Origin: a bacterium
GTDB lineage: Bacteria; Eisenbacteria; RBG-16-71-46; CAIMUX01
Reading direction: 5' to 3'
NCBI GenBank assembly: GCA_030431975.1
Contig: JAUIHP010000002.1
Coordinates: 62,001 to 126,000, forward strand
DNA length: 64,000 nt
In this document: piece after piece, positions 19,210 through 28,918 of the stretch
Numbering within the stretch: the stretch's first letter is position 1
Layout of the letters: each line of letters opens with the position of its first letter
Made by a program: the position numbers and the translations under genes
The notes under the pieces: generated by a model
What the model saw: the letters and a program-made list of their open reading frames with translations, nothing else
Databases searched by the model: none
What the model was told of the DNA's origin: nothing

Positions 19210-19548
19210 TCAGTCGGTACGAAACGCGGAGTCGAGATCAATTCGAATGAGACGAATCCTCTCTCCAAGAAGCGTCAGCGTGTCGCACCACCGACGGCCT
19301 TCGTACAGGTACCGAACCTGTACCGACAGTCGTCCGGACTTCGATCGAAAGAGATCGGGAAGGTCACGTGGCCGCAACTCACTGGAGTCCGAAAGGTCTC
19401 GGTCACCGTCGCGCGCGCGAACGACAAACCCCTCAGCGCACTCTTCCAGGTCCTGTGCCAGTTTTTCCAGATCCTCGTGACTGAGGTCAGCACTGAAGAC
19501 CTCGGGTGAGTCGGCACCCTTCGAACCGCCCTCCGGATTGTGGTTCAT
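19210..19548 (-). CDS. Unknown 112-residue protein, last gene of the nap operon
   Basis: Start ATG 19548 overlaps the stop of napF by four bases (ATGA), so it is translationally coupled. No signal peptide. The sequence has an acidic helical first half (FSADLSHEDLEKLAQDLEECAEGF) and a beta-like basic second half (SGRLSVQVRYLYEGRRWCDTLTLLGERIRLIRIDL). I recognise no family. Position suggests a cytoplasmic maturation or regulatory factor for the Nap system, but that is inference. It is not NapD, which is encoded at the head of the operon. Confidence 0.7.
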   Translation of the reverse strand: MNHNPEGGSKGADSPEVFSADLSHEDLEKLAQDLEECAEGFVVRARDGDRDLSDSSELRPRDLPDLFRSKSGRLSVQVRYLYEGRRWCDTLTLLGERIRLIRIDLDSAFRTD

Positions 19549-20207
19549 CCGTTTCCGGATTCCGGCGTCGGCCTTTGAAACGTGGGCATGAGCAGAATTG
19601 CGTTCTGCGGAGCCGGACAAACATAGAGACAGACCCCACAGCCGACGCAGAGGGACTCGTTCACGACCGGCCGTCCGGACTGCATCACGATTGCCCCCGG
19701 GACTGGACACCGGTCCATGCAGGTACTGCAGAAGGTGCCCTGGTGGGCCAGACAGGTCTGCTCGATGATCCGTGCAGTTCCCATGTAAGGCTCGACAGAA
19801 GAAACAAGCGCTCCCGTGCTGCATGACCGGATGCAAGGCGGGTCGTCGCAGAACCAACAAGGCTGTGAAACGGGATCGAAGATCGGAGTGCCCGCCGCGG
19901 AGCGAAACCGTTCCGGGGCAAGAACGAGTGAGTCGTGGGGGCAGGCGTCGATACAGGCGCCGTTACTGTCGCACGAGGCTAGAAAAGCCCGCTCCTCGAT
20001 CGCGCCGGGCGGCCGAAACACCGGAATGGCGCCGCCAGCCGACTGCCCGCGGCCCGCCCCCGAAGAGCCGCCGCTCCCGGAATCTGCGACCGGGTAGCGC
20101 GTTGGACCATCGACGGTGCCTATCTCGCCCGACTTCGAACTCCGTCCACCCAGGAATCGCCCAAGGAGAAACGAGCGACGGCTCAGTTTGCCGGAGTCCT
20201 CCGCCAC
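19545..20207 (-). CDS. napF: NapF-type polyferredoxin
   Basis: Start GTG 20207 lies two bases after the napB stop; the longer frame overlaps napB by 150 bases and is rejected. 220 residues. The N-terminal KLSRRSFLLGRFLGGR is the twin-arginine-like motif seen in NapF proteins. Four ferredoxin-type cysteine groups follow; the third and fourth (CLAHQGTFCSTCMDRC, CVGCGVCLYVC) match the NapF order closely. In the first group one of the four expected cysteines is missing (CDSNGACIDAC has C-x5-C-x3-C where NapF has C-x2-C-x2-C-x3-C), so that cluster may be three-iron or absent. NapF is thought to help load FeS clusters or electrons into NapA in the cytoplasm. Confidence 0.8.
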   Translation of the reverse strand: MAEDSGKLSRRSFLLGRFLGGRSSKSGEIGTVDGPTRYPVADSGSGGSSGAGRGQSAGGAIPVFRPPGAIEERAFLASCDSNGACIDACPHDSLVLAPERFRSAAGTPIFDPVSQPCWFCDDPPCIRSCSTGALVSSVEPYMGTARIIEQTCLAHQGTFCSTCMDRCPVPGAIVMQSGRPVVNESLCVGCGVCLYVCPAPQNAILLMPTFQRPTPESGNG

Positions 20208-20209
20208 GG

Positions 20210-20977
20210 CTACCAGGGCCTTCCGACCGTTGGTTCGAAAGGATCCAGAACTGCGTCCCGCGCGTGACACTGCATGCAGTTTGTACGATTCGGGTGGGAG
20301 GTTCGCAGCCCGGCACGCCCCGAAGGACCGTGACAACTCAAGCAGTTCTCTCGCATCCACGTCGAATGGGGGATGACGGGCGGCGCCCCCAGCCAGGCCC
20401 TGTCCCCCCCCATGGGCGCCGGCTTTCCGTCAAACGCGCTCAGCACCACGAACTCGAGTTCGAAAAGGTCGGACTCCGCGACGTGGCACTGCTGACAGTT
20501 CGTGTAGTGGCGATGCGGAATCTTCGGTACCTGAACGTCACCCACCTGAACGCCCTGCTCATGACAGCTGGTACACGCAAGATCGTTCATCCCGTCCGTG
20601 GAATGCGGAATCGTCGGCGGCGCGCCGTTGTAGGCGCGCAACGAGGCTCGCTTGACCAGCGAATGAGGCTTCGCCGACGGATCGATTTCGATCTCTTCCG
20701 AAGGGATTCCCTTCACTCCTCCGATATCGGACACCGTGTATCCGGCTCCTCCATAGGCAGATGGCCCCCGTTTCCCGAGGTCATCGTAGCTCACTGCCGG
20801 ACCGACGGTCCCGACTTTGAAGTGAGACTCCTCCCGGAACTCCTCCTGGAACTCATCGCGGTCTGCCTTTGGTACGCCATAGTCGAGACCTACGAAGAAG
20901 CCAATGACCGCACAGCCCATGACTCCGGCTAAAAGGAGATGTGTGAGTCTTCGCTTCCTGTCTTCAGACGTCGTCAT
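20210..20977 (-). CDS. napB: NapB-type cytochrome c, tandemly duplicated (four CxxCH sites)
   Basis: Start ATG 20977 overlaps the napA stop by four bases. 255 residues: an N-terminal membrane/signal segment (about 11-30, [20 protein letters not shown]), then a linker, then two copies of a NapB-like di-haem unit. Copy 1 (about 117-170) has [15 protein letters not shown] at 135 and CQQCH at 161. Copy 2 (about 197-245) has [15 protein letters not shown] at 212 and CMQCH at 234. Ordinary NapB carries only two haems in about 150 residues. The copies align over GAPP-IPHST--M---C-SCH and TNC-QCHA. The protein should receive electrons in the periplasm and pass them to NapA; the extra pair may bridge to a different donor. 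Confidence 0.87.
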
Positions 20978-23364
20978 GGGTTGTCCTGAGCGCGGCGTAC
21001 CCTCACCGCACTCTTCTTGTAGTCCGGTTGTTTTGAGAACGGGTCGTGTGCTTCCAGCGTCACCTTGTTGATGAGTTTCGTCTCGTCGAAGAACGGAACG
21101 AAAACGGTCCCCTTGGGCGGGCGGCCCCGTCCGCCGACCCAGGCCGGCAGTGTGGTTTGTCCCCGCCGCGACTCCACGATCACCGGCTCCCCGCTCCGTA
21201 CCCCCAACTCCTTCGCATCCTCGGGGTGAAGTTCTACGTAGGCCTTGGGCATGGCGCGGTTGAGTTGCGGAACACGTCGAGTCATCGTGCCCGTGTGCCA
21301 GTGTTCGAGGACGCGTCCCGTTGTGAGCCACAAGGGATACTCTCCATCAGGTTGCTCAGCCGGCGGTTCATAGTCGTAGAACCAGACTTGGGCTCGACCA
21401 TCACCCGTGTTCGAGTGATAGAACTCAAACTCCTCCCCATTGGAAACGTAGGGGTCGTCGAACGCAGAAAAGCGGAATCGTGTTTCTCGCCAGGAGCCAT
21501 CGTCCTGCTGAACGACGGGCCAGCGGAGCCCTCGGGCTTCTACGTATTCTTCATAGGGCGCGAGGTCTTTGTGCTTCAGGCGGGTAAACTGCCTGTACTC
21601 CTCGAAGAGTGCCTTGTCCACGTTTACATCGTAGTATCGTTCGAAGTCCCAGACGGGAACTACACGGCCGTTCTCGTCGCGGATCTCGAATATGAAGTTC
21701 CCATCCTTGTCCTTCATCCCCTCATGGCCAAGTTCGTAGAGCCGGTGGGCGACGGCAATGGTCATCCAGCAGTCGTCCCTTGCCTCTCCGGGAGGACTCA
21801 CCATCCTGAACCATTGTTGGGTCCGTCTCTCGGAGTTCCCGAAGATTCCGTTCTTCTCGACCCACATGGCCGCCGGCAGAACGAGGTCCGCCAATTCGGT
21901 CGTTGCCGTCGGGTAGACCTCCGAAACGACGAGGAACTTGTCTTCCATCCCGCGCTTGCGCTCGAAGAGCTTGTTCAGGTTGGGCAGGGTTTGGCCAGGG
22001 TTGGTAACCTGAACCCAGATGGTGTCGATGTCTCCGTCCGGCGAGCAGAAGCTGTCCCACATGCTCACGGTGTGACGACCGGGCTTCTCGTTGATCCGGC
22101 CCTCGGGCAGATTCCAGAACTGCTCGGCCTGTTTCCGGTGCTCGGGGTTGGCGACGACGCGGCCACCGGGTAGAGCGTGTGCCAGAGTTCCGACTTCGCG
22201 AACGGTTCCACACGCCGATGGCTGTCCGGTCAGACTCGTCGGTGCGTCCCCGGGTTTACCGAAGTGACCGCTGAGCAGGTGAACTCCATGGACCAGGCAG
22301 TTAATGGCCGTCCCCATGGTGTGCTGGTTCATCCCCATACACCACAGACTCGTGATCCGAAGATCATCCCTCCCGAAGAGATCCGCCAACATGCGGATCT
22401 TGGCCGCCGGTACCCCGGAGAGTTCTGCGACATACTCGGGGGTGTAAGGTTCCAATGACTGTTTGTACTCCTCGAAAGGGATCGGCTCGCCCCTGAGCTG
22501 AGGCGTTCCTCCCTGAGCCCGAAACGCGCAGTGCTTCTCCACGAACTCATGAGAGTACGTGTCGTTCTTGATCAGAAGATGGGCAATCCCGAGAGCGATG
22601 GCGACATCTCCGTGGGGCTTCATCTCCAGATACTCCTGACTCTGATCGGAGGTGCGCGTCCGACGAGTCGAGATGTCGATCAGAAGCACCTCCTCTCCCC
22701 TGAGACGCCGATCCACGACCCGGGAGAAGAGGACGGGATGCATCTCGGCCGGATTGTTCCCCCAAGTGATCAGGACATCGCAAGCATCGAGATCGTCATA
22801 ACATCCTGCCGGTTCGTCGACGCCGTAGGTGGCCAGGAACCCCGTAACGGCCGAGGCCATGCACAGCCTAGCGTTGGGGTCGATGTTATTGTTCGATAGG
22901 CCGCCCTTCATCAACTTCTGGCACGCGTAGCCTTCAGGTATCGTCCACTGGCCTGAACCGTAAAGCGCGAACCGCTCCGGGGCTGCCATGATTCGCCGCG
23001 CAAGCAGGTCGATGGCGTCGTCCCAGCTGGTGGGAACGAGACGCCCGCCCCGTCGGACCATGGGTTGTCTGAGTCGATCCTCCCCGTAGAGGATCGAGCC
23101 CACGTGGTAGCCCTTTACGCAAAGCAGTCCCTTGTTCACGTCCGCGGCCTGATCGCCGGCAATCGCAACGACCTTGTCCTTCTCCACGCCGACCATGACA
23201 TGACATCCGGTGCCGCAGAACCTGCAAGGCGCCTTGTCCCACTTGAGGCTGTTTCCGCCGCTCGACAGAGTAGCTCCAGCGTCGCCCGCCGCCGCGGCCG
23301 TCGCCGCAGCCATGGCCGCCGTCTTCATGAAGTCTCGACGACTCACAGGGCGCGACATACTCAT
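20974..23364 (-). CDS. napA: Periplasmic nitrate reductase catalytic subunit
   Basis: 796 residues. Tat signal [18 protein letters not shown]. The FeS cluster motif [14 protein letters not shown] is completed by [10 protein letters not shown], whose lysine is the conserved electron-relay residue of the Nap/formate dehydrogenase group. The molybdenum-ligand cysteine is in [13 protein letters not shown], and the bis-MGD binding segments ([45 protein letters not shown]) are intact. It reduces nitrate to nitrite in the periplasm. It overlaps napD upstream and napB downstream by four bases each. NapC and NapGH are not encoded nearby. Related molybdoenzymes cannot be fully excluded, but flanking napD, napB and napF support Nap. 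Confidence 0.94.
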
Positions 23365-23678
23365 GGCTTGCCTTCCTCTTCCCGAGCCTCCGGTCCTCTG
23401 TGGCCCGTCGACAGTACTGTTGTGGTTGTGACATGGGTTTCAGGGACCTCGTCCTGGAACGAAACGAAGACGACGTCGATCTTGGAGACATCGCTCCGTG
23501 CTTGCAGTTCGGCCCAGAGCCGCCGGTCCTCTTCCCGGTCGCCGGTGTCGGTGACGATGGGGAGTCGCTGTTGTTGAGGAGTACCGACCTGCAGCCTGGA
23601 ATCGCGGGCGAGGTCTTGCCGGAGCAGGGCGATGTCCGCGCCTTGGGGGACGGTCAGAACCAATCCGCTGATGGGCAT
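23361..23678 (-). CDS. napD: NapD-type chaperone for NapA
   Basis: 105 residues without signal. N-terminal [22 protein letters not shown] matches the beta-alpha start of NapD, the cytoplasmic ferredoxin-fold protein that binds the NapA Tat signal and holds back export until cofactor is loaded. The C-terminal 30 residues ([18 protein letters not shown]) are an unstructured extension. First gene of the operon; its stop overlaps the napA start (ATGA). Start ATG 23678. Confidence 0.8.
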
Positions 23679-23703
23679 GAATCATCCTTTCGACATCGAC
23701 ACG

Positions 23704-23731
23704 ATCCTATCCAACCGCGGTAGAAAGACAA
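23704..23731 (-). promoter_or_regulatory. Predicted nap operon promoter
   Basis: On the minus strand: TTGTCT (23731-23726), a 16-base spacer, TAGGAT (23709-23704). Transcription would start near 23697, about 20 bases before napD. No clear FNR-type palindrome is visible. Confidence 0.45.
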
Positions 23732-23749
23732 GCGCGTACTGCAAAGGAC

Positions 23750-23777
23750 TTGAACCTGCCCTTGAATCGCGTAGAGT
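23750..23777 (+). promoter_or_regulatory. Predicted promoter of the cytochrome-FeS-NrfD operon, with a direct repeat
   Basis: TTGAAC (23750-23755), a 16-base spacer, TAGAGT (23772-23777). The -35 hexamer is one half of a direct repeat TTGAA at 23750 and 23762, 12 bases apart. The repeat also lies just upstream of the divergent nap promoter, so one regulator could serve both. Confidence 0.35.
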
Positions 23778-23804
23778 GTTCGCACGGTGGAAACGGAGGT
23801 TCAC

Positions 23805-24464
23805 ATGCTGCGTTTCGGATTGATCCTCTTCGGGATGATTGTTGTCGCCGCAGTCTTGGGTTCGATGGTAGGTGCGGACTCTGCGGATTCCGGAGAGCCC
23901 GCGCCGCCGACAGCCGACCTCACCGCTCCCGCCCACCAACACCCCGTCGAGATCCGACGCCCATCGCGAGTCTCCGGAGTTTCGACCGGTCAAGTTGACG
24001 CCCAGGGACATTTGGTGACGGTAGCCTGCGCAACCTGTCACTCCCTATTGGGGAAACCCGAACCCCAGACCCTGGAACTGACCTCCGTCGAGTATCACTC
24101 CTTCGAGTTTGCACACGGAAACCTGACCTGTAACTCCTGCCATGACCCCGAGGCTCCCCTTCAGTTGCGTTTCGCCGATGGCAATCCGGTGGCGGAGGAG
24201 GACCTCATCGACCTGTGCTCCCAGTGCCACGGTCCCCAACGAACGGATTTCGATCATGGTGCTCACGGAGGTATGACGGGCTACTGGGACCTGTCGAGAG
24301 GTCCCCGGACGAGAAATCACTGCGTGTCGTGCCACGCACCACATGCGCCGGCAATTCCCCAGATCCGTCCGACCTTCAAGCCCAAGGATCGCTTTTTGTC
24401 CCCGTCCCCGTCCCCGTCCCCGTCCCCGAAGGAGGAGACTGCCGCAGGCGGTTCGTCCCATTGA
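23805..24464 (+). CDS. Membrane-anchored tetrahaem cytochrome c
   Basis: Start ATG 23805 (GGAGG five bases upstream), 219 residues. An uncleaved-looking N-terminal membrane segment (residues 3-22), then four CxxCH sites: CATCH 75, CNSCH 109, CSQCH 138, CVSCH 173. The histidines HSFEFAHGN and FDHGAHGGM could supply distal ligands. The tail holds five Ser-Pro repeats. The gene heads a three-gene unit with an exported FeS protein and a NrfD integral membrane protein, the layout of DsrJ-DsrO-DsrP or NrfBCD-type quinol-oxidising modules. Divergent from nap: the likely periplasmic electron shuttle between quinol and NapB, though that is inference. Confidence 0.85.
   Translation: MLRFGLILFGMIVVAAVLGSMVGADSADSGEPAPPTADLTAPAHQHPVEIRRPSRVSGVSTGQVDAQGHLVTVACATCHSLLGKPEPQTLELTSVEYHSFEFAHGNLTCNSCHDPEAPLQLRFADGNPVAEEDLIDLCSQCHGPQRTDFDHGAHGGMTGYWDLSRGPRTRNHCVSCHAPHAPAIPQIRPTFKPKDRFLSPSPSPSPSPKEETAAGGSSH
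24398..24427 (+). repeat. Five GTCCCC hexamer repeats inside the tetrahaem cytochrome gene
   Basis: Five uninterrupted 6-base units encode the Ser-Pro repeats near the C-terminus. The length is a multiple of three, so slippage would lengthen or shorten the linker without breaking the frame. Confidence 0.9.
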
Positions 24465-24492
24465 CCATGTTACATGTACACTAGGAGCGCGA

Positions 24493-25434
24493 ATGAACGA
24501 AGAGAAGCCAACGTTGGAGGCTGGCTCGAAGACGGGAGATGTCTCCAGACGAAACGCGCTAAAGGGCATCGGAGCCACACTCGGTGCAACAGCTTTCGCT
24601 GCCGCGATCTCACCACTACGCAATCTGGCCAAGGATGTCTCGCCCGAAGAGTTTTTCCAGAAGCACTATCAGGAACTCGATGACGATGAAAAGACACGAG
24701 TCATAGAGCGGCTCGAAGCCGAAGCCCGGTCGGAGTACGGCGCCGAAGTTCAGATTCGGGACCACCGGCCGATCCCAGGCACGCGCTTCGTCTACGCAAT
24801 CAACCTCAGTCTCTGCAACGGCAACGGAAAGTGCGTTGAAGCATGCCACCAGGAAAACAACCACGATCGCGCCACGAACCAGTCCTACATCCGGGTCCTC
24901 GAGATGCCGAACGGTACTATGGACATGGAGCAGGGAAACACGACCTACGACCACGCTGTGCCCGCGAAGGGAAAGTTCTACCTACCGGTCCAGTGCCAGC
25001 AGTGCGATGAGCCTCCCTGCACCGACGTTTGCCCGGTCCAGGCCACATGGAAAGAGGACGACGGGATCGTCGTTGTCGACTACAACTGGTGCATCGGATG
25101 CCGCTACTGCGAAGCCGCCTGCCCTTACCACGCCCGCCGCTTCAACTGGGAGAAACCGGTCGTCCCCGCTGATGACGTAAACCCAGACCAAGGCTACCTC
25201 TCGAACCGTATCCGCCCTCAGGGTGTCGTCGAGAAGTGTCATTTCTGCCTCCACAGAACCCGAGAAGGCCGGCTACCTGCATGCCTGGAAGCGTGTCCGA
25301 CCGGTGCCCGCGTCTTTGGAAACATCCTCGACCCCGACTCCGACATCCGTTGGATCCTCGAGAACAAACGAGTATTCGTCCTCAAAGAGGAACTGGGTAC
25401 CAAACCCAGTTTCTTCTACTTCTTCGACAAGTGA
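24493..25434 (+). CDS. Tat-exported four-cluster ferredoxin subunit (NrfC/DsrO type)
   Basis: Start ATG 24493 with GGAG upstream; 313 residues. Tat signal at residues 15-45 (DVSRRNALKGIGATLGATAF). Four cysteine groups in the order typical of NrfC/DsrO/PsrB proteins: CNGNGKCVEACH, CQQCDEPPCTDVCP, CIGCRYCEAACPYHARRF and CHFCLHRTREGRLPACLEACP. The protein should sit on the periplasmic face on its NrfD partner and carry electrons from the quinol site to the cytochrome. Separated by 28 bases from the cytochrome gene and six from the NrfD gene, so the three are an operon. Confidence 0.92.
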   Translation: MNEEKPTLEAGSKTGDVSRRNALKGIGATLGATAFAAAISPLRNLAKDVSPEEFFQKHYQELDDDEKTRVIERLEAEARSEYGAEVQIRDHRPIPGTRFVYAINLSLCNGNGKCVEACHQENNHDRATNQSYIRVLEMPNGTMDMEQGNTTYDHAVPAKGKFYLPVQCQQCDEPPCTDVCPVQATWKEDDGIVVVDYNWCIGCRYCEAACPYHARRFNWEKPVVPADDVNPDQGYLSNRIRPQGVVEKCHFCLHRTREGRLPACLEACPTGARVFGNILDPDSDIRWILENKRVFVLKEELGTKPSFFYFFDK

Positions 25435-25440
25435 GGCACA

Positions 25441-26685
25441 GTGGCAGACGGTTCGCCAACCCATGAGCCCCGGCACCTGATCAGTTATCCCAGGTTCCTA
25501 CTTCGGTCCCTTTCGATCGCGACCGATGGTTCCTTCGCATTCTACGCATGGATGACGGCGCTGACCGCTGTTGCACTCGTCGGCGCCAACGCGTGGGCCA
25601 ACCAGGTGACGCAGGGAATGATCACGACCGGTATGACCGACCACGTCAGTTGGGGCCTGTACATCGCCAACTTCACGTTCTTCGTCGGCGTCGCGGCCGG
25701 GGGCGTGATGATGGTCATTCCGGCCTACCTGTACCACGACGAAGAAATGCACGACGTCGTGATTGTCGGCGAGTTGTTGGCAATCGCCGCGATCGTGGTG
25801 TGCCTGCTCTTCGTCACCGTGGATTTAGGACGCCCGGACAGATTCTGGCACTTGATCCCCGGACTCGGTCGATTCAATTTTCCCGTGTCGATGCTTACGT
25901 GGGACGTGATCGTCCTGAACGTCTATCTGCTCCTCAACCTGCACGTTTGCGGTTATCTGCTCTACATGCGGTTTCTCGGCAAACCGCCCAACCCACGCTG
26001 GTATGTCCCCTTCGTCATGCTCTCGATCGTCTGGGCGATCTCCATTCACACGGTAACGGCCTTTCTCTACTGTGGACTCGGGGGGCGCCCTTTCTGGAAC
26101 AGCGCAGTCCTGGCACCGCGTTTTTTGGCCTCCGCGTTCGTTTCCGGTCCTGCGTTCATCATCGTGACGATGCTCGCGCTGCGGCGTTTCGCCGGCATTC
26201 GCATTCCGACCGGGCCGATCCAGACGCTCGTCAGAATTATCCGAGTCACGATTCTCATCAGCTTGCTCATGCTGGTGTCGGAAATCTTCACCGAGTTCTA
26301 CTCGGGTGGAGCTCACACGGCGTCGGCCCGCTACTTGTTTCTCGGTCTCCACGGACACGACGCTCTCGTACCTTGGATCTGGACAGCCGTCGCAATGACG
26401 GTGTTGGCGGCAGTTCTGTTTCTTACGCCCGCGGCCCTGAAGCAGCGACGGATCCTGATACTGGCCTGCATCCTGGCGTTCGTCGGCGGGTGGATCGAGA
26501 AGGGGATGGGATTGATCATCCCTGGCTTCGTCCCCAGTACGCTGCACGAGATCGTCGAATACACGCCGAGTCTGGTCGAGTGGAAGATCTCCGCCGGAAT
26601 CTGGGCGTTCGGCCTGATGGTCTACACTATTGCTCTCAAATTCGCCATCCCGGTTCTTCAGCGAGCCCGAAGCGACGAGGGTTGA
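25441..26685 (+). CDS. NrfD/PsrC-family integral membrane quinol-interacting subunit
   Basis: 414 residues starting at GTG 25441, six bases after the FeS gene. About ten hydrophobic segments (AFYAWMTALTAVALVGANAW, ISIHTVTAFLYCGLG, ILISLLMLVSEIFTEFYSG and others) make this a polytopic DsrP/NrfD-type protein. VDLGRPDRFWHLI and the SWGLYIANFTFFVGVAAGGV region are typical of the family. It would oxidise quinol and hand electrons to the FeS subunit. It likely replaces the missing NapC or NapGH as quinol dehydrogenase for nitrate reduction; a different acceptor is possible. Confidence 0.93.
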   Translation: MADGSPTHEPRHLISYPRFLLRSLSIATDGSFAFYAWMTALTAVALVGANAWANQVTQGMITTGMTDHVSWGLYIANFTFFVGVAAGGVMMVIPAYLYHDEEMHDVVIVGELLAIAAIVVCLLFVTVDLGRPDRFWHLIPGLGRFNFPVSMLTWDVIVLNVYLLLNLHVCGYLLYMRFLGKPPNPRWYVPFVMLSIVWAISIHTVTAFLYCGLGGRPFWNSAVLAPRFLASAFVSGPAFIIVTMLALRRFAGIRIPTGPIQTLVRIIRVTILISLLMLVSEIFTEFYSGGAHTASARYLFLGLHGHDALVPWIWTAVAMTVLAAVLFLTPAALKQRRILILACILAFVGGWIEKGMGLIIPGFVPSTLHEIVEYTPSLVEWKISAGIWAFGLMVYTIALKFAIPVLQRARSDEG

Positions 26686-26818: not shown

Positions 26819-27304
26819 TCATACTCGAACTCCGTACTTCCCTACGCGAAGGGGGCCGTCTGTCAGGATGCGGCATCTGAGCCCACCGCGCCCGGTCATG
26901 AGGTCGCGGGCTCCGTCCGACAAAGCAACGTCCATCCAGTAGCACGGCTTGCACTCTTCGACTCCGAAGAACCGCACGCCTTGGACCTCGAACTCTTTGC
27001 CGACAAGGTCGTTCAGTTCGAGACCGGACACGATCACGTTGCGCCGAACCGAACCCGGACTCAGGTCATCGATTCCGAGGGCGCTCCGTAGCTCGTCGAA
27101 GACTTCGAGGGCGAAAAAGGTAATCTGCCCCTTGTAGCCGTCTTTGTGCTCGAAGAAGCGGTCCCCCTTTAGCCCCTTCCCCGCCACACACTCGACTTCT
27201 TCGACGTCTCGAACGGCGTGTTTTCCGGGTGGTTGTCCATGGTGGCCAAAGAAGTTGTGGCCATCGGAAATGAAGATGTGGTGGATGGTCACTACTCGAC
27301 GCAT
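26819..27304 (-). CDS. MOSC-domain protein
   Basis: 161 residues, start ATG 27304. The MOSC core is visible: GKGLKGDRFF, KGQITFFALEVFDEL, VRRNVIVSGLELNDLVGKEFEVQGVRFFGVEECKPC, with the conserved cysteine in ECKPC. MOSC proteins bind or transfer sulfur to molybdenum cofactor or act as sulfur carriers. The position between a molybdoenzyme operon and Ric fits a role in handling cofactor for NapA, or in sulfur and FeS metabolism under nitrosative stress. No transmembrane segment or second domain. Confidence 0.85.
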   Translation of the reverse strand: MRRVVTIHHIFISDGHNFFGHHGQPPGKHAVRDVEEVECVAGKGLKGDRFFEHKDGYKGQITFFALEVFDELRSALGIDDLSPGSVRRNVIVSGLELNDLVGKEFEVQGVRFFGVEECKPCYWMDVALSDGARDLMTGRGGLRCRILTDGPLRVGKYGVRV

Positions 27305-27464
27305 AGACTCTACCTAACATCCTACCGCGATCAGGCCGTGACGACGGTCTCGAAGCGCCAATCGCAGACCTGCCGGAGATCGACTCGCAACCCCCGTAGA
27401 GCCACCTCTTTCGTCAACAAACTCTACGCTACGCTCGAGCCTCGTTTACGCTCCAAGGTCCCCC

Positions 27465-28151
27465 TCACGACGTCGGACCATGCAACGCGCGCGGAAACAG
27501 GATGTTGTTTTCGAGATGGATGTGGCGGTGCATCGCAGTTTCGAGCGCAGCCAGGCCATGCCACAATGCCCTCCAGGTCGTGCAGGCCTCCTCCGGAACG
27601 CGGAAGTCATTCGTCAGTCTCCGAATTTCCGAGAGCGCATCTCCGGCGGATCTGTGTTCGTCCTCCATGCAGGCGACTGGGCCAGCGGCCATTTCTCCCT
27701 GTCCGTTCTTTATCATGGGGAAGAGAACCCTCTCTTCCTTCTCCATGTGCTGCAGGAGTTCGGCCTCCAGCTCTCGGAAGACCGAGAGCAAGGGCGGGAG
27801 GGTCTCAGGGTAACCATCACCGTGAACGTCCGCCACCTTGGCGGCCATGGACTCCAGGCGAGGGAGTTCTTCCTTCAACGGCTCGTGATACGCCGTGAGA
27901 ATGTGGTCGATGAGGATCTCGGGCTCCACCTCGTCCCAACGAACAGAGTCCCCGTCGTCTTCCGAGAGTTCGCCCTCGATCTCAGCAAGGATGGCGTTTG
28001 GATCCAGTTCGAGGCGATCGCAAAGCTCGCCCAAAGGCAGACCTCCCCCACAACAGAAGTCGATCTGGTACCGGGCAAAGACCCTAGTTGCAAGTGGGAA
28101 TTCAGTCGCGATATTCCCAACCGTATCCGTGATCTTGATCTGCGAGTTCAT
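27465..28151 (-). CDS. ytfE: Ric (YtfE/ScdA) di-iron protein for repair of FeS clusters
   Basis: Start ATG 28151 with GGAGG just upstream; the longest frame adds 22 unlikely residues. 228 residues. N-terminal ScdA_N domain with IDFCCGGGLPL (the paired cysteines at 33-34), then a hemerythrin-like domain with iron-ligand histidines in DHILTAYHEPL, LLQHMEKEERVLFP, EDEHRSAGD and MHRHIHLENNILFP. These proteins protect or repair iron-sulfur enzymes after nitric oxide exposure. It is the middle of a leftward run TetR-Ric-MOSC. Co-location with nitrate reductase makes sense because NO arises from nitrite. Confidence 0.93.
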   Translation of the reverse strand: MNSQIKITDTVGNIATEFPLATRVFARYQIDFCCGGGLPLGELCDRLELDPNAILAEIEGELSEDDGDSVRWDEVEPEILIDHILTAYHEPLKEELPRLESMAAKVADVHGDGYPETLPPLLSVFRELEAELLQHMEKEERVLFPMIKNGQGEMAAGPVACMEDEHRSAGDALSEIRRLTNDFRVPEEACTTWRALWHGLAALETAMHRHIHLENNILFPRALHGPTS

Positions 28152-28213
28152 GAGTTCCTCCAATCGCCGACTTCGCTCATGGTTCAAGGTCCGTCGATGA
28201 AACGCACCTGTGA

Positions 28214-28816
28214 TCATGATTTCGTCGGCCTGTCCTTTCTGGTGACCAACGTTCGGCTCGGTCGTGGAGATGCGAGCAGTTTCGGCAACGCATCAAAAAC
28301 ACGATCCATCTGGGCACGGTCCTGGTTCCCGATCATAGCGTGAACGGTCCCCATGACCGTGACGACGAGGGTCTCGGGTTCAATGTCATCGCGGATGTAA
28401 CCATCGCGAACCCCCTCACGGACGGCAGCAAGAAAGTACTTCCGGCTCTTGACCGCCACATCGTGCAGGGGGCCGGTCGCATTCGGCGGCAGAGTCAGAA
28501 ATGCCTGCTCCGAGCGAAGCAACCAGTTGATCCCCGGCCGCGAATGGAGCAAATCGATCCGATTCCTCGCCAGAACGACGATTCGTTCGAGCGGCGGCAG
28601 TTTCGGGTCGGGGAACGTGGCTTCCAGCTGTTCGACTCCATAGAGGGCTGCTGAAACGAGGATTTCGTCTATCGACTCAAAATGACGATAGAGCGCTCCG
28701 GTCGTCAGTCCGACCTCCTCGGCGATTGTCGAAGTAGAAAGCGAAGTCAAACCACGCTCTCCGATGATGCGTAAAACGGCGTCAGCGATTTGGAATCGGC
28801 GCTCAGAACGCTTCAT
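28214..28816 (-). CDS. TetR-family transcriptional regulator
   Basis: Start taken as ATG 28816 (MKRSERRFQIADAVLRII), which fits the usual TetR N-terminus; ATG 28834 is an alternative and a third start at 28870 is less likely. About 200 residues. The helix-turn-helix is LSTSTIAEEVGLTTGALYRHFESIDE. The C-terminal ligand domain is helical (LPPLERIVVLARNRIDLL, AAVREGVRDGYIRDDIEPETLVVTVMGTVHAMI). It is 62 bases upstream of ytfE on the same strand, and a perfect palindrome stands just upstream of the start. It probably represses itself and ytfE/MOSC; the inducer is unknown. Confidence 0.9.
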   Translation of the reverse strand: MKRSERRFQIADAVLRIIGERGLTSLSTSTIAEEVGLTTGALYRHFESIDEILVSAALYGVEQLEATFPDPKLPPLERIVVLARNRIDLLHSRPGINWLLRSEQAFLTLPPNATGPLHDVAVKSRKYFLAAVREGVRDGYIRDDIEPETLVVTVMGTVHAMIGNQDRAQMDRVFDALPKLLASPRPSRTLVTRKDRPTKS

Positions 28817-28844
28817 CCGGATCCCGGCTCCCATGAACCATATT

Positions 28845-28864
28845 GTAAGTAACCACTTACTTAC
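28845..28864. promoter_or_regulatory. Palindromic TetR operator
   Basis: GTAAGTAA-CCAC-TTACTTAC: eight-base arms, perfect inverted repeat, four-base centre. It lies 29 to 48 bases upstream of the chosen TetR start on the promoter side, the usual place for an autoregulatory operator. Confidence 0.8.
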
Positions 28865-28918
28865 TTTCAAGCCAATTCATGCTCCTAGTCGAACTCGCAT
28901 TCGAGGGCCCGCGAAAAA

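Follow-up and report, generated by a model that had tools for sequence, protein, structure and literature searches.

How a periplasmic nitrate reductase (Nap) receives its electrons when neither of its standard quinol dehydrogenases, NapC and NapGH, is at hand is the question raised by a nap locus in an Eisenbacteria genome (G000; 6.19 Mb, 97% complete). The locus lies in a stretch of 64,000 nucleotides, called the window here (contig JAUIHP010000002.1, positions 62,001 to 126,000; G000:C10:62001-126000). The operon napD-napA-napB-napF/G-like-small open reading frame (ORF) occupies positions 19210-23678 of the minus strand, and three genes on the plus strand (23805-26685), termed the trio below, run in the opposite direction and encode a tetrahaem cytochrome, an iron-sulphur (FeS) protein of the twin-arginine (Tat) type, and an NrfD/DsrP-like membrane protein (Table 1). 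An earlier note on this DNA, which had described the two groups as facing each other across 126 bases, placed every gene that it named correctly. The trio is probably the dedicated quinol dehydrogenase of this Nap, replacing NapC or NapGH. The functional part of this assignment is drawn from sequence and gene order, namely the conserved divergent linkage, the origin of the Nap-linked NrfD proteins in one clade, the co-occurrence of the genes, the quinone-site residues, the haem ligands, and the absence of the usual donors.

Relatives were sampled as 47 genomes of the window's own phylum and 343 genomes of Planctomycetota; many of these assemblies are drafts or metagenome-assembled genomes (MAGs), in which absences are weaker than presences. 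Within the own phylum, NapA of at least 80% identity occurs only in the source genome and in G002, the only other genome of its family with NapA, each with the divergent pair; the contig of a third NapA (53% identity, G011) is 3 kb long and stops around the gene. Among the Planctomycetota, NrfD of at least 65% identity was found in 26 genomes, NapA of at least 60% in 26, and both in 25 (Fisher p 1e-35). All 21 loci where such an NrfD is linked to nap are divergent, within 3.4 kb, and they belong to 20 of the 343 genomes. A locus outside the 21 (L114, on contig C524 of G320) is divergent too. Where only one of the two proteins was detected, the contig ends inside the cytochrome gene of a divergent trio (G213) or NrfD stands near a contig end (G165), and in the other unlinked cases the genes are on separate contigs, G386 excepted. 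Chance is excluded as the cause of this genetic linkage between trio and nap, which recurs in G002 and in the planctomycete genomes, with Phycisphaerales OFTM33 and a Gemmataceae MAG among the named hosts.

In the NrfD tree, the Nap-divergent set and one NapB-linked copy form a single clade (support 100/100), the window NrfD nests among Planctomycetota sequences, and the sister clade is octahaem-linked. The NrfD proteins of 55-59% identity adjoin an octahaem cytochrome of the HAO family; some of these loci include a nap operon in the same orientation, in a few cases together with NapG/NapH-like genes, and others lack nap. NrfD proteins of 52% identity or less occur mostly without NapA. The trio of the sister clade is followed directly by the octahaem cytochrome (PF13447) in L098, L099, L101-L105, and L123-L128, with or without nap, and the two likely form a quinol-linked octahaem nitrite or hydroxylamine reductase system. 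The earlier note had suggested examining whether the divergent pair is conserved in relatives, and had regarded a trio found with another reductase but never with Nap as contrary to its proposal. The pair is kept across two phyla, and it is the sister clade that appears to serve the octahaem cytochrome, while the window trio belongs to a clade bound to Nap. In the exceptional G386, the native-type trio (L096, G386:C12:343000-353000) lies 32 kb from nap and adjoins a second gene for the duplicated, or twin, NapB described below, without NapA; its NapA (L095) is faced divergently by a trio of the octahaem clade, with no detectable octahaem gene in G386. The nap-facing position has been refilled by another trio and the displaced one has kept a twin NapB, which fits a functional link between trio, twin NapB, and NapA. 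Elsewhere (L110, L111, L161), an octahaem cytochrome stands directly upstream of NapA with no trio, and L161 also has NapG/NapH-like genes and a Rieske/cytochrome b pair; these are possibly further wirings of Nap.

The composition of the trio fits a quinol module of the NrfD family, as the NrfD-family protein, the FeS partner, and the quinone-site residues are all present, and quinol oxidation is its predicted activity. D128, S150, and D155 of the NrfD protein are invariant and align to His139, Ser164, and Asp169 of ActC, positions that line the quinone site in the family (PMC8076601). The four CXXCH motifs of the tetrahaem cytochrome are invariant in 23 relatives, and HGAHGGMxGYWD is also conserved. 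The FeS protein, earlier described as having four clusters, is indeed of the Tat type but keeps 15 of the 16 cluster cysteines; Asn111 takes the place of the second cysteine of the first motif, and 11 of 24 relatives likewise lack this cysteine, so that one cluster could be of the [3Fe-4S] type or otherwise changed.

The description of the trio as DsrJOP/NrfBCD-like stands in part, the DsrP model being passed and the DsrO model narrowly missed (Table 1), whereas the cytochrome is neither DsrJ nor NrfB. With DsrJOP of the DsrMKJOP complex of sulphate reduction, the trio shares the DsrP match and the order cytochrome-FeS protein-NrfD protein, with DsrO as a near match. However, DsrJ is trihaem, the window cytochrome is tetrahaem without a DsrJ match, the trio is linked to nap, and no DsrMK-type gene was found in the examined neighbourhood and no dsrA in the genome. 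NrfBCD, the donor to NrfA, is alike in proposed role, in which a multihaem carrier, an FeS protein, and NrfD would pass quinol electrons to a periplasmic N-oxide reductase. The window proteins nevertheless score far below the cut-offs of the NrfD (28 of 348 bits) and NrfC (117 of 378 bits) models, the cytochrome has four haems where NrfB has five, the partner is Nap, and NrfA has NrfH. A DsrP model of NCBIfam that exceeds its cut-off on a protein without sulphur-pathway context is likely to cause mis-annotation, and under this name genomes of nitrate respirers may be taken for those of sulphur cyclers.

The usual donors were sought across the whole genome, as the earlier note had recommended. 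No NapC scored above the cut-off and no NapC-type cytochrome is linked to nap; the sole NapC-family protein over a cut-off is NrfH (TIGR03153, 162 bits), whose gene immediately precedes that of NrfA on contig C7. No NapH scored above the cut-off in the genome either (best 61 bits against 213), and therefore the known NapGH dehydrogenase cannot form, despite a NapG/NapF-like ferredoxin in the operon. The claim that NapC and NapGH are lacking is thus upheld for NapC and NapH, with the reservation that this ferredoxin had been overlooked, as had the duplication and probable membrane anchor of NapB. The ferredoxin reaches 93.7-99 bits with MauM/NapG and 49.5 bits with NapF, both under the curated cut-offs; its N-terminus (SRRSFLLGRF) is NapF-like, without a hydrophobic signal stretch, and it probably fills the cytoplasmic NapF role. 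In 14 of the 30 genomes with linked trio and Nap, no NapC/NrfH-family protein is detectable (in some of the genomes, scoring covered the top candidates only), so donors of the NapC type are probably not the general rule. The source genome encodes two proteins that pass an NrfD-family cut-off, that of the trio and an ActC-type protein, which adjoins an ActB-type fusion and cox genes on contig C22.

The receiving end of the proposed chain has features of its own. The catalytic subunit is, by its best solved relatives in the Protein Data Bank (PDB; 3ml1, 2nya, and 1ogy, E 1e-222 for 3ml1 to 1e-212), a true NapA, and every other family scored far lower than the NCBIfam NapA model. The [4Fe-4S] motif from Cys47 and the molybdenum cysteine, Cys168, are kept. 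Tyr86 aligns with Tyr58 of the solved NapA, a residue that NapA proteins binding NapB conserve and that takes part in the contact with NapB (PMC13223375), a match that supports the trio as Nap donor. NapB is not the usual two-haem single unit. It carries four CXXCH motifs in two tandem NapB units preceded by an N-terminal helix, each half having in order PPxxPH, CxxCH, His, and CxQCH. The halves, compared as profiles, match with 99.4% probability (E 1.5e-21, 42% identity), and on these grounds the protein is a tandem duplication with four haems. Across 20 aligned relatives the haem-ligand pattern does not vary, and almost all of them have a hydrophobic N-terminal segment in which two glycines are invariant; residues 4-32 of the window copy are modelled as a helix with high confidence; the haems are probably bis-His and the protein is probably membrane-anchored. 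Searched against the PDB, twin NapB and the tetrahaem cytochrome returned nothing beyond weak matches to NapB. Under the phrases tried, a literature search limited to one paper collection found no NapB that is tetrahaem or duplicated, and twin NapB looks undescribed in those papers.

Taken together, quinol would be oxidised at a periplasm-facing site of the NrfD/DsrP-like protein, and the electrons would travel along the iron-sulphur clusters of the exported FeS protein, reach the tetrahaem cytochrome, and continue through the four haems of the membrane-anchored twin NapB to the [4Fe-4S] cluster and molybdenum centre of NapA. NapA would reduce nitrate to nitrite, and NrfHA, encoded elsewhere in the genome, would take nitrite to ammonium. 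The direction and order of electron flow, like the physical contacts between these proteins, are predictions from sequence. Nap respiration is usually held to be non-energy-conserving, because the protons set free by NapC or NapGH emerge on the side on which nitrate reduction takes them up, with Qcr in Campylobacter as a noted exception (PMC6195509). Ion translocation has been proposed for the NrfD family (PMC8076601), and the NrfD subunit of the window may share it. It is conceivable, though we hold it with some doubt, that an ion-translocating NrfD module, the tetrahaem carrier, and the duplicated, anchored NapB form a Nap supercomplex. In contrast to Nap driven by NapC or NapGH, respiration through such a complex would be electrogenic, both in Planctomycetota and in the phylum of the window.

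The trio could instead, in the manner of NrfBCD, oxidise quinol for the reduction of nitrite or hydroxylamine and stand beside nap only through a shared nitrate-to-ammonium island, as might be expected from the octahaem-linked trios of the sister clade and from a four-gene NrfD locus near the Thermosulfurimonas nap cluster, suggested to serve nitrite reduction (PMC5276818). However, the octahaem gene is missing from the source genome and from 24 of the 28 genomes of the Nap-divergent type, and the octahaem cytochrome therefore cannot be the partner there; because NrfA has its own NrfH beside it, nitrite reduction does not require the trio, and no nitrite reductase was found at the divergent loci examined. 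Both the octahaem cytochrome as partner of the window trio and the trio as NrfA donor were rejected on these grounds, and this explanation appears unlikely. In another reading, Alternative Complex III (ACIII) or a different quinol:cytochrome c oxidoreductase supplies Nap, by way of soluble cytochromes or of the tetrahaem protein, and the trio has a secondary role. Qcr-driven Nap has been shown in C. jejuni (PMC6195509), ACIII has been proposed as donor in Caldithrix (PMC5317091), and the source genome carries, ahead of the cox genes on C22, an Act cluster encoding pentahaem, fused MoFeS, and NrfD-type subunits; yet this cluster is linked to cytochrome oxidase and not to nap, and such a route, which we consider quite improbable, leaves the bond between trio and nap across two phyla unexplained.

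Trio and nap could also be neighbours through having been transferred and inherited together as a respiratory island, with no electrons passing directly between them. The nesting of the window NrfD in Planctomycetota sequences suggests a block transfer between phyla, and the mirror-tree distance correlations of NapA with NrfD (r 0.78), the FeS protein (0.74), and the cytochrome (0.61) were not used as proof because joint inheritance alone gives such values. Nevertheless, the pair holds together even where its proteins have diverged to 60-65% identity, and the native trio of G386 moved away and another took its place facing nap (L095, L096), which leaves mere co-transfer very improbable. The reading of the trio as dedicated Nap donor has its own difficulties. 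The sister-clade trio evidently serves an octahaem cytochrome, so that specificity for Nap is not inherent in the module; the nap operon contains a NapG-like ferredoxin, though without NapH; a soluble cytochrome could in principle carry electrons to Nap from ACIII (ActB/ActC, C22); and the structural models of twin NapB and the tetrahaem cytochrome (mean pLDDT 56 and 61), of which only the NapB N-terminal helix is usable, are too poor to test docking or contacts.

Among described systems, NapC and NapGH share with the trio the role of passing quinol electrons to NapB but are unrelated proteins. NapM, a tetrahaem carrier of Desulfovibrio and others, is likewise a tetrahaem cytochrome associated with nap (PMC5276818, PMC5317091); its systems lack NapB and have NapGH, whereas NapB is present and doubled in the window, and the comparison of the two cytochromes is by description only. 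For the MAGs OFTM8 and OFTM33, an ACIII-like cluster of reduced length has been reported "downstream of Nap" and given a likely part in respiratory electron transfer (PMC10732223), and OFTM33 corresponds to our locus L034, with the same divergent pair; the passages on that cluster carry no claim on the Nap donor and no doubled NapB. A list of NrfD complexes includes no nitrate reductase (PMC8076601), and none of the four operon types in a 2026 review of Nap resembles the present arrangement (PMC13223375). The replacement of NapC in nitrate respirers containing NrfH has been called poorly understood in a 2025 review (PMC12285233). The source genome is such a case, with NrfHA and without NapC, and an NrfD-type donor would answer the question for this lineage; for the source bacterium and many planctomycetes it points to a previously unrecognised wiring of nitrate respiration, possibly with an energy-conserving supplier, as such a donor could be ion-translocating.

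Table 1. Features of the divergent nap-trio locus (window positions)
Feature	Positions	Strand	Remarks
Small ORF, 112 aa	19210..19548	-	Motif RYxxEGxxWxDT; last gene of nap operon
NapF/NapG-family polyferredoxin	about 19545..20207	-	GTG start at 20207, just past napB stop
Twin NapB, tetrahaem	20210..20977	-	NapB domain PF03892, 42.7 bits (cut-off 25.1)
napA, catalytic subunit	20974..23364	-	Tat signal; NCBIfam NapA 896 bits, just below cut-off 904
napD-like chaperone	23361..23678	-	Position and sequence; below library thresholds
Divergent intergenic region	23679..23804		126 bp, exact if cytochrome ATG is at 23805
Tetrahaem cytochrome c, exported or membrane-anchored	23805 (ATG; or GTG 23787)..24464	+	Four CXXCH
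Tat-type FeS protein, DsrO/NrfC-like	24493..25434	+	DsrO 191.9 bits, just under cut-off 200
NrfD/DsrP-like membrane protein, predicted quinol-oxidising	25441..26685	+	PF03916 143 bits, over cut-off; DsrP 431 bits (cut-off 350)

The napD-like gene is kept before napA in several relatives. The small ORF is kept as the final nap-operon gene in many planctomycete loci, and its homologues (tblastn, E 1e-7 to 1e-4) lie directly after napF/napB in L034, L112, L143, L146, L152, and others. It has no Pfam or PHROGs match and is taken to be an accessory protein of nap that had not been described. The idea of a common regulator site between the two operons was rejected, as no FNR, NNR, or CRP-like site was found in the window copy; perfect or near-perfect FNR/NNR-like palindromes (TTGATCTGGATCAA, TTGACCTGGGTCAA) occur between nap and trio only in three closely related loci (L157, L158, L114). 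Convergent with the trio and beyond it, the minus strand at 26819-28870 encodes a MOSC protein, a RIC/YtfE-type iron-sulphur repair protein, and a TetR regulator. A RIC gene also lies near the nap locus of G074 (L100), and the presence of RIC/YtfE genes near nap fits protection from nitrite-derived NO.

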